Assembly (NCBI RefSeq): GCF_000264455.2
Contig: NC_017958.1
Coordinates: 873,001-937,000 of the forward strand
Source of the DNA: Tistrella mobilis KA081020-065
GTDB lineage: Bacteria; Pseudomonadota; Alphaproteobacteria; Tistrellales; Tistrellaceae
DNA: 64,000 nucleotides
Direction: 5' to 3'
Position 1 is the first letter of the stretch; each line of letters begins with the position of its first letter. The position numbers were made by a program, and so were the translations under genes. Under the pieces are notes generated by a model, which saw only the letters and a list, made by a program, of their open reading frames with translations, did no database searches and was not told where the DNA came from. Of the stretch, positions 8,698-34,290 are shown piece after piece.

Positions 8698-8966
8698 GGG
8701 GTCCACTATCCGGATGACTGGCCGCCGCCAAGATAGGGGTTGCCCCCCGGGTGCGCAAGCCTCGGCCGTGCAGGGCGGGCATATGTGCCGTGCAGGGGTG
8801 GCCGCGGCGCTGCATTACGCATCGATGACAGCCATCCTGTCCACAGGCCGCTTGTGGAAAAGCGGGGGAAGAATCGCCCGGTTCCGGCGCGGAATCAAGG
8901 CCCTCCGGGGCTTTGCGCGAATGCTGTGCGAAGTCCCGGACATGGCGGGCTTTTCCATACATGACC

Positions 8967-28276: not shown

Positions 28277-29518
<1,242 letters not shown>

Positions 29519-29558
29519 CGGGGGTCCCCAACTGCAAAAAGGTAAGTCTGGCGCTCTT

Positions 29559-29574
29559 TGCGAGGTGCGTGCCA
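29559..29574 (-). promoter_or_regulatory. Sigma-54 (-24/-12) promoter of rtcB
   Basis: On the minus strand the sequence reads TGGCACG, CACC, TCGCA. This is the -24 element intact, a correct four-base spacing, and a -12 element with one change from TTGCA. The predicted start is near 29549, about 30 bases before the rtcB ATG. RtcR, encoded divergently, is a sigma-54 activator, so element and activator agree. Confidence 0.85.
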
Positions 29575-29664
29575 GACCGGCCCTGCGCGAGGGAAATCCA
29601 CCCAAGTCCTTGCTTTGTAAAGGCCTGATGGCCAGAGGTCGCACCGGCTGGGCAGAGGCATCCC

Positions 29665-29683
29665 GACCGGATATGATCCGGTC
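29665..29683. promoter_or_regulatory. Candidate RtcR binding site (perfect palindrome)
   Basis: GACCGGAT and ATCCGGTC form a perfect 8-base inverted repeat around ATG (19 bases in all). It lies about 125 bases upstream of the predicted rtcB start point and 31-49 bases upstream of the rtcR start. That is where an enhancer site for a sigma-54 activator, and an autoregulatory site, would be expected. Confidence 0.55.
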
Positions 29684-29713
29684 ATCTCGGAAGTTATACG
29701 TCAGGATAAGGGC

Positions 29714-31321
<1,608 letters not shown>

Positions 31322-33172: not shown

Positions 33173-33685
33173 CGCTTCCCCATCTTTTTCTGGTTGCGAT
33201 CCAACATCATGCGTCGACGACCCGGGTGCCGCGGCGTCCGGCGGGGGCCTTGGGCGGTCACCTTCGGCAACCGGCCGGCCCGGATCCGACCACCGCGAGC
33301 CGTCGTTCCGGAGCAGAGAGACCCTGCGCCATCTCTCCCGCGCAGGCCACCTGCCCCGGCCTCCCCGGGCTCGGGCTGGGGCCATTATGCACGGCTGGGG
33401 GCGGAACCAGAAGCGGGGAAACTCGCCTTACGCCTGATAGGAAAGCCATGCAGATCGCGCACGGGTCTGGTGCCATGCAGAAGCTGCATTGTTGCAGTGC
33501 GAAATGGACCCCTCCCGAAACCGATCGATCAGGCGTATCTCTAGCTCATCGAAACGACACGATGCGCCGCCGCAGCTCAGGCGCCCCGACCGAGCCCCCC
33601 AAGCACGCAGCCCTGAAAGACCTTCAGGATGCGACCGGTCGAGAGGCCCGGCAGCGAAGACGGCGCAGCCCCTAGGAGACCTGTC
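33173..33685. other. 513-base divergent spacer between livK-like and DUF1127 genes
   Basis: No gene was recognised here. The right half is less GC-rich and contains a perfect inverted repeat ATGCAG-AAG-CTGCAT (33475-33489). It also has a directly repeated GCCATGCAGA (33445-33454 and 33472-33481), then TTGCAG at 33492-33497. These look like regulator sites, but none could be assigned, and no convincing -35/-10 pair was seen for either flanking gene. Confidence 0.35.
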
Positions 33686-33889
33686 ATGACCGCCTTCATC
33701 CCTGGCGTCATCTCGCTGAAGAACGTTGTTGCCCGGATGATCCGGTGGCGCCTTGAGCGTCGGACCTATGCCGAGCTGAAGTCCCTCGACGACCGCATGC
33801 TGGCCGATATCGGCATCTCGCGCGGCGAGATCCGCTCGGTCGCGACCCATGGTCGCCAGGGTCACGAGGTTGCCGGCTACGGCGTGTGA
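33686..33889 (+). CDS. DUF1127 (YjiS-like) small protein
   Basis: This 67-residue protein starts MTAFIPGVISLKNVVARMIR and contains the DUF1127 core WRLERRTYAELKSLDDRMLA followed by DIGISRGEIRSVA. AGGAG sits 7 bases before the ATG. DUF1127 proteins are short, basic and stress-linked. In Rhodobacter sphaeroides one such protein, CcaF1, is encoded immediately upstream of the CcsR sRNAs and is reported to act with RNA. Here too the gene is followed by a long non-coding stretch full of C-rich hairpin loops up to a strong terminator, so it probably heads a combined mRNA-sRNA transcript. Confidence 0.92.
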   Translation: MTAFIPGVISLKNVVARMIRWRLERRTYAELKSLDDRMLADIGISRGEIRSVATHGRQGHEVAGYGV

Positions 33890-33899
33890 TCCAGCGAGC

Positions 33900-34290
33900 C
33901 CGGCTGTGGATATAGCCGGAGATCGCGCCTGAAACAAGCTTCGCATCGGGAGACGTCCTCCCCCGGATCCCGATGCGATAACTGAAGCGTTTCCCCCGCT
34001 TCAGCCTGCCCGGGCCGCTGCCGCCCTCCCTCGGCAACCGGCCCGACCCCAGCCCGGCGTCTGCTGCGCCTCCGCCTGCCCTCCCTCAGGCCCGAGTGCT
34101 GCGCGACGCCGACGGGACCGGTCGTTCCCCACTTGCGACCAGCCCCGCGATGCATCAACGACGGTCCGGCCGCCCTCCCTCGGCCCCACCGTCCGCCCCT
34201 CTCCCCAAGGGGCCGCATCGCCGGGCCGCAAGACGGACCGGTCACCGCATCACGGCCCCGACGCTTCCCCCGTCGGGGCCGTTTTTTTTG
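33900..34290 (+). ncRNA. Array of hairpins with C-rich anti-SD loops (cuckoo/CcsR-type sRNAs)
   Basis: This non-coding stretch between the DUF1127 stop and the next gene folds, by direct reading, into successive stems. H0 33900-33919. H1 33941-33978 has an 11-base-pair perfect stem, loop with CCTCCCCC. H2 33982-34004 has an 8-base-pair stem, loop TTTCCCC. H3 34011-34045 has loop CCCTCCCT. H4 34074-34091 has loop CCCTCCCT. H5 34120-34140 has loop TCCCCACTT. H6 34160-34193 has 6 plus 5 base pairs, loop CCCTCCCT. H7 34195-34213 has loop CTCCCCA. The terminator hairpin at 34252-34282 has loop CTTCCCC. CcsR RNAs of Rhodobacter show CCUCCUCCC loops behind a DUF1127 gene. Such loops can pair with GGGAGG ribosome sites or protein-bound RNA. 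Processing into units is inferred. Confidence 0.75.
34252..34289 (+). terminator. Strong rho-independent terminator of the DUF1127-sRNA transcript
   Basis: A perfect 12-base-pair stem (34252-34263 with 34271-34282) with loop CTTCCCC runs straight into eight thymines (34282-34289). This is the clearest terminator in the window. It lies 363 bases beyond the DUF1127 stop, so it must end a long non-coding transcript. Confidence 0.92.

Follow-up and report, generated by a model that had tools for sequence, protein, structure and literature searches.

We found that a DUF1127 gene of Tistrella mobilis KA081020-065 is directly followed, on the same strand, by an array of eight hairpins with C-rich loops. 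This array is a real, conserved and ordered feature. Judged by its sequence, it is a lineage-specific variant of the CcsR/cuckoo arrangement known from Rhodobacter and rhizobia, in which the loops carry a different sequence. The array was analyzed within a window of 64,000 nucleotides (G000:C4:873001-937000), taken from a genome of 6.5 Mb in five contigs.

Anatomy of the locus

The features of the locus, all on the plus strand, are as follows:

33475..33499, +: compound regulator box ATGCAGAAGCTGCATTGTTGCAGTG
33686..33889, +: DUF1127 gene, 67 aa (PF06568, 57.5 bits), with the Shine-Dalgarno (SD) sequence AGGAG at 33674-33678 and the stop codon TGA at 33887-33889
33900..33919, +: H0, the first hairpin after the stop, without a C-loop; in the congener, one T-A pair (33905/33914) is replaced by C-G, a compensatory change
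33941..33978, +: H1, 11-bp hairpin with an uninterrupted stem, loop TCCTCCCCC at 33956-33964; loop invariant in three genomes
33982..34004, +: H2, perfect 8-bp hairpin with an uninterrupted stem, loop TTTCCCC at 33990-33996
34011..34045, +: H3, hairpin with an imperfect outer stem, loop CCCTCCCT at 34024-34031
34055..34111, +: H4, long imperfect hairpin, loop CCCTCCCT at 34079-34086
34120..34140, +: H5, hairpin with loop TTCCCCACTT at about 34125-34134, also given as TCCCCACTT
34160..34193, +: H6, 13-bp hairpin (85% paired), loop CCCTCCCT at 34173-34180
34195..34213, +: H7, 6-bp hairpin with an uninterrupted stem, loop CTCCCC(A) at 34201-34207
34252..34289, +: H8, intrinsic terminator with an uninterrupted 12-bp stem, loop CTTCCCC at 34264-34270 and a T8 tail at 34282-34289

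The hairpins lie where an earlier note on this DNA had put them, and their loops and the T8 terminator were verified at the positions listed. That note had counted at least seven C-loop hairpins. The array is present, and our count from 33900 to 34289 is one hairpin without a C-rich loop and then eight with one, the last being the terminator. The stems had been described as perfect, which holds for H1, H2, H7 and H8. It does not hold for H3, H4 and H6, whose closing stems are perfect over 4-5 bp and whose extensions are imperfect, or for H5, which is closed by a G-U pair. Longer-range pairing competes with H5, and its C-motif is mostly unpaired in this alternative fold too. The length of 363 bases after the stop given previously was too short, as the array ends at least 398 nt past the TGA. 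The array had also been called denser than the Rhodobacter one, which was not borne out: there are eight hairpins in 342 nt here, while genome G023, which is Rhodobacteraceae-like judging by its loci, has eight in about 400 nt. The longest core in common with the canonical loop is CCTCCC, found at 33957, 34025, 34080 and 34174.

Upstream, at a distance of 2.4 kb from the DUF1127 gene, an RNA-repair locus occupies 28280-31318. Its RtcB ligase is encoded on the minus strand (PF01139, 430 bits), and RtcR, the activator of this ligase, on the plus strand (PF06956). Positions 33173-33330 of the minus strand form the leader of a periplasmic binding protein gene that runs divergently. The genome studied and the congener are identical over about 130 nt of this leader, while the gene itself has clearly diverged; the fold stability of the leader is not unusual (z +0.31).

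Non-randomness and folding of the array

A fixed detector found eight C-loop hairpins in 401 nt, compared to 1.02 on average and 5 at most in dinucleotide shuffles, so that 0/1000 shuffles reached the count of the array. On the opposite strand of the window, no stretch of 400 nt held more than two. The minimum free energy of the array fold is -214 kcal/mol, with z = -9.3 on the plus strand; the value on the other strand (z = -7.5) is expected for inverted repeats. All the C-motifs of the array had mean unpaired probabilities of 0.88-1.00.

Open frames of up to 148 aa overlap the array on both strands, and another possible explanation is that the region encodes protein on either strand, the hairpins being a by-product of high GC. 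However, none of the five overlapping frames matched Pfam, and the 148-aa frame begins beyond the conservation break at the T8 tail described below. By inspection, there is no codon pattern among the variable positions, and the hairpin count exceeds that of shuffles with the same dinucleotide composition. A coding origin is, therefore, extremely improbable, and the antisense or protein-coding reading of the array was rejected.

Conservation within the genus

Conservation was examined in three genomes: the genome studied (G000), a second genome of the same species (G058) and a congener (G001). The array is single-copy in each. Beyond one weak 47-nt partial match in G058, no second copy was found in the three genomes, and a search of a plasmid collection for the array gave no match. 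Across the three genomes, 17 of the 398 positions of the array block are variable, as are 11 of the 204 positions of the DUF1127 gene. The stretch 33981-34140 has no variable position (0/160), and neither do the loops (0/65). At such low divergence, the invariance of the loops is only modest evidence. The stems are near-invariant within the genus, and covariation support consists of the single pair 33905/33914. Immediately after the T8 tail there is a sharp break, with 46 of the next 75 positions variable. Since conservation collapses right at this point, the conserved unit ends exactly at the terminator. A search for pairs of CCCTCCCT found the array in the Tistrella genus only.

Relationship to cuckoo and CcsR RNAs

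The earlier note had assigned the locus to the cuckoo/CcsR type and named a covariance model of cuckoo RNAs as a check. By the criteria given in papers that cite the family description, cuckoo RNAs carry CCUCCUCCC in each hairpin loop (PMC3927594, PMC10746234). This loop is absent from the array, and no CCTCCTCCC occurs within 33890-34290. A search for pairs of CCTCCTCCC in 385 Alphaproteobacteria recovered the Rhodobacteraceae loci and not the Tistrella locus; G058 has one simple-repeat match elsewhere. The covariance model (R1) was built from 21 canonical cuckoo hairpins and has 12 pairs, 11 of them with changes on both sides. Hairpins of the canonical locus L085, which was outside the training set, scored 27-40 bits with this model. 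The array hairpins scored 10.8-12.3 bits with E values of 2-5 (best 12.3, E about 2), no better than background, as unrelated GC-rich stems in the window reached 17.6 bits. Because CCUCCUCCC is absent and the model scores are at background, the array was not filed as a cuckoo RNA.

Other features of cuckoo loci are present: a variable number of tandem hairpins with unlike stems and like loops (eight here), a short co-directional DUF1127 gene directly upstream, and a Rho-independent terminator at the 3' end. The array is, then, not a strict cuckoo RNA and has the plan, the promoter box and the core CCUCCC in common with canonical loci. The plan of DUF1127 gene, tandem C-loops and terminator supports the earlier assignment, as does the promoter box, while the absence of the CCUCCUCCC loop and the covariance model speak against it.

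Like CcsR1-4/ccaF1 of Rhodobacter sphaeroides (CIN1), the Tistrella locus has a DUF1127 gene, co-directional tandem C-loops and a C-loop terminator (PMC10253847), as well as the CCUCCC loop core and the promoter box common to canonical loci. The canonical CIN1-type loci found here also have about eight hairpins in 400 nt. The Tistrella loops are CCCUCCCU, CCUCCCCC or U2-3CCCC in contrast to the canonical CCUCCUCCC, and the array lacks clear two-hairpin units. NfeR1/alpha-r14 of Sinorhizobium meliloti (RFMSmelA075, A099) likewise displays the same anti-SD loop on several unlike stems and has the LsrB-type motif TGCA-N6-GCAT upstream, but NfeR1 stands alone as a trans-sRNA and has three CCUCCUCCC loops, whereas the Tistrella array would be a DUF1127 3' UTR. 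The AbcR1/AbcR2 RNAs of the VtlR/LsrB regulon are regulated alongside DUF1127 genes in Brucella and have partial anti-SD motifs; unlike the array, they are short sRNAs without tandem C-loops. The Rfam families 6C and sX13 resemble it in their C-rich hairpin loops and differ in taxa and architecture. Their matches (19.8 and 18.3 bits, compared to gathering scores of 47 and 50) are sub-threshold and at chance level. Rfam gave no match in the window at the gathering score and nothing real at relaxed thresholds, and a literature search found no paper on Tistrella sRNAs.

The promoter box

What is new here is that, by motif match, the compound box of canonical loci is present in the promoter region of the Tistrella locus, roughly 190 nt before the start of the DUF1127 gene (box-to-start distances are approximate). 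It contains the LsrB motif TGCA-N6-GCAT at 33476-33489 and the VtlR motif GCAT-N3-TG-N3-T at 33486-33498, and its letters match both published motifs exactly (PMC10746234, PMC7486931). LsrB activates NfeR1, a cuckoo-type RNA with CCUCCUCCC, via TGCA-N6-GCAT, a motif that EMSA and mutation support in the NfeR1 promoter (PMC10746234). GCAT-N3-TG-N3-T is the VtlR consensus (PMC7486931), and VtlR of Brucella controls three DUF1127 genes and AbcR2 (PMC12595884).

A position weight matrix was built from the promoters of five DUF1127 genes that belong to canonical C-loop loci and was run on the 64 kb. The site at 33475-33499 was the best at 20.6 bits, compared to 13.3 bits for the next non-overlapping site, and 0/500 Markov shuffles reached 20.6. 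Scores of at least 12 bits were found in 64 of 202 DUF1127 upstream regions and in 1 of 190 downstream controls. TGCA-N6-GCAT alone was found upstream of 29/202 DUF1127 genes and in 0/190 downstream controls. Since both motifs are in the box and VtlR controls DUF1127 genes and AbcR2 in Brucella, our best guess is that an LsrB/VtlR-type regulator controls the DUF1127-array unit.

The compound box, ATGCA-N4-CTGCAT-NG-NN-GCA-N-TG, occurs in about a third of the 202 DUF1127 upstream regions across Alphaproteobacteria, a wider spread than the reported Rhizobiales VtlR/LsrB regulon. The promoter scan found no sigma-70-like site, and where Rhodobacter has a promoter dependent on RpoHI/RpoHII, inspection of the Tistrella region brought up the LsrB/VtlR-like box instead. 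A PhaR-type site in the promoter (CTGC-N-GCAG) was dropped because it was not enriched (38/202 vs 29/190), and a second pair of LsrB/VtlR motifs, at 8769, was dropped because it precedes an unrelated large gene.

C-loop hairpins behind other DUF1127 genes

Sense C-loop hairpins downstream of DUF1127 genes are a general feature. The 550 nt downstream of 208 DUF1127 genes held 125 on the sense strand compared to 20 on the antisense strand; upstream of these genes there were 49 sense and 26 antisense. Hairpins with CCTCCC loops were found within 200 nt of DUF1127 in 21/205 cases on the sense strand, compared to 1/205 on the antisense strand and 3/196 further downstream. Many genomes have one such hairpin directly after DUF1127, while arrays of four or more were found in Rhodobacteraceae-type genomes and the Tistrella genus only. 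In Rhodobacteraceae, relatives of the DUF1127 gene precede arrays of about eight CCUCCUCCC hairpins. For example, G023 has a 72-aa DUF1127 gene behind which, from +8 nt onwards, stand eight hairpins whose loops are of the (TCTC)CTCCTCCCT type; the terminator carries the same loop. Similar arrays are found in Wenxinia marina and Aliiruegeria lutimaris. In a different family, genome G035 has a DUF1127-linked array (L014:1700-1944) of three CTCCCC-loop hairpins plus larger C-rich hairpins, with near-identical repeated units GGACCAGG...CCTGGTCC.

The DUF1127 protein of the window and the 72-aa protein of G023 share 42% identity across 50 aa. In a protein tree, which is rough as the proteins are short, Tistrella did not group with the Rhodobacteraceae array genes. 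The nearest proteins in this tree come from genomes with no or one C-loop hairpin, so the Tistrella array may have formed independently of the Rhodobacteraceae arrays.

Complementarity to Shine-Dalgarno sequences

The loop core CCUCCC is the complement of GGGAGG, a strongly used SD core in this genome by pattern count: GGGAGG-N4-10-ATG occurs at 516 sites, compared to 44 in a reversed control. The suggestion that the loops can pair with SD sequences thus agrees with this predicted complementarity. The ratio of GGGAGG to AGGAGG SD sites is 1.65 here (516:313), 1.58 in the congener (450:284) and 1.50 in G035 (337:225), which has CUCCCC loops. Four Rhodobacteraceae-type genomes, of which at least three have CCUCCUCCC arrays, give ratios of 0.92-1.18. 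These ratios, which come from few genomes and are uncorrected for GC, are suggestive of co-tuning between loops and SD sequences.

Perfect AGGGAGGG-SD matches are few (23 vs 8 in the control). The genes with a AGGGAGGG SD in both species (L319/L318, L322 and L304) encode an N-formylglutamate amidohydrolase, a TctC receptor and possibly an AraC-type regulator. These presumed orthologues are weak candidates for targets of the CCCUCCCU loops.

Possible functions of the array

By analogy with NfeR1 and CcsR1-4, the array is probably a redundant anti-SD RNA derived from the 3' UTR of a single DUF1127 transcription unit. The redundant anti-SD loops of NfeR1 silence ntrB by pairing at its ribosome-binding site (PMC10746234), and CcsR1-4 arise from the ccaF1 3' UTR through RNase E cleavage, which CcaF1 assists (PMC10253847, PMC8625941). 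On this analogy, a LysR regulator of the LsrB/VtlR type would probably switch on a single transcription unit that comprises the DUF1127 gene with a long, structured 3' UTR and stops at the terminator at 34252-34289. Either as one non-coding RNA or as a precursor from which several sRNAs are cut, the 3' UTR would display eight C-rich loops held on stiff stems. With their CCUCCC core, these loops would serve as redundant anti-SD seeds that pair with G-rich SD sequences of the GGGAGG type and keep many mRNAs from being translated, in the way that NfeR1 and CcsR use CCUCCUCCC. The DUF1127 protein may take part in maturation, as CcaF1 does. Each of these steps, from transcription and processing to the regulator, mRNA pairing and the role of the protein, is inferred from the related systems.

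The same hairpins could instead be a protein-binding platform or sponge for the DUF1127 protein, a CcaF1-like factor or another chaperone, acting by autoregulation or titration without mRNA pairing. One presented motif is repeated beside the gene of a small basic protein, as such a platform would have it, and CcaF1 binds RNA and affects the maturation of the co-transcribed CcsR RNAs (PMC10253847, PMC12501420). However, RNA binding by DUF1127 proteins is disputed, with no evidence for YjiS and with protein-protein roles described (PMC12501420), and the closely related loops of NfeR1 act by base pairing at ribosome-binding sites (PMC10746234). We regard a sponge as unlikely. A role limited to the DUF1127 mRNA, as a stabilizing, slowly decaying 3' UTR with a strong terminator and no activity in trans, would fit the very high stability of the GC-rich hairpins and terminator, and the DUF1127 mRNA of S. 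meliloti is heavily regulated at the RNA level (PMC12218461). Stability does not predict invariant C-rich loops, the strand asymmetry of 125 sense to 20 antisense hairpins, or the way CCUCCC loops recur behind DUF1127 genes throughout the class, which makes this explanation quite improbable.

Extending the anti-SD reading to the class, the 3' UTRs of alphaproteobacterial DUF1127 genes could hold a C-loop anti-SD module whose loops are re-tuned by lineage to local SD usage. Here, where GGGAGG is a commoner SD core than AGGAGG, CCCUCCCU would have replaced CCUCCUCCC, and the array would broadly restrain translation initiation under the control of LsrB. This extension is speculative and, in our estimate, doubtful.

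Meaning of the finding

The arrangement of a DUF1127 gene and a C-loop array is not tied to CCUCCUCCC, the motif used for cuckoo searches, and motif-based searches will, therefore, miss such loci. These loci also make it possible to test directly whether anti-SD loops track SD usage in their host; on this point, the SD ratios, uncorrected for GC, are suggestive only. One promoter box of the LsrB/VtlR type links them and can be used to find more.
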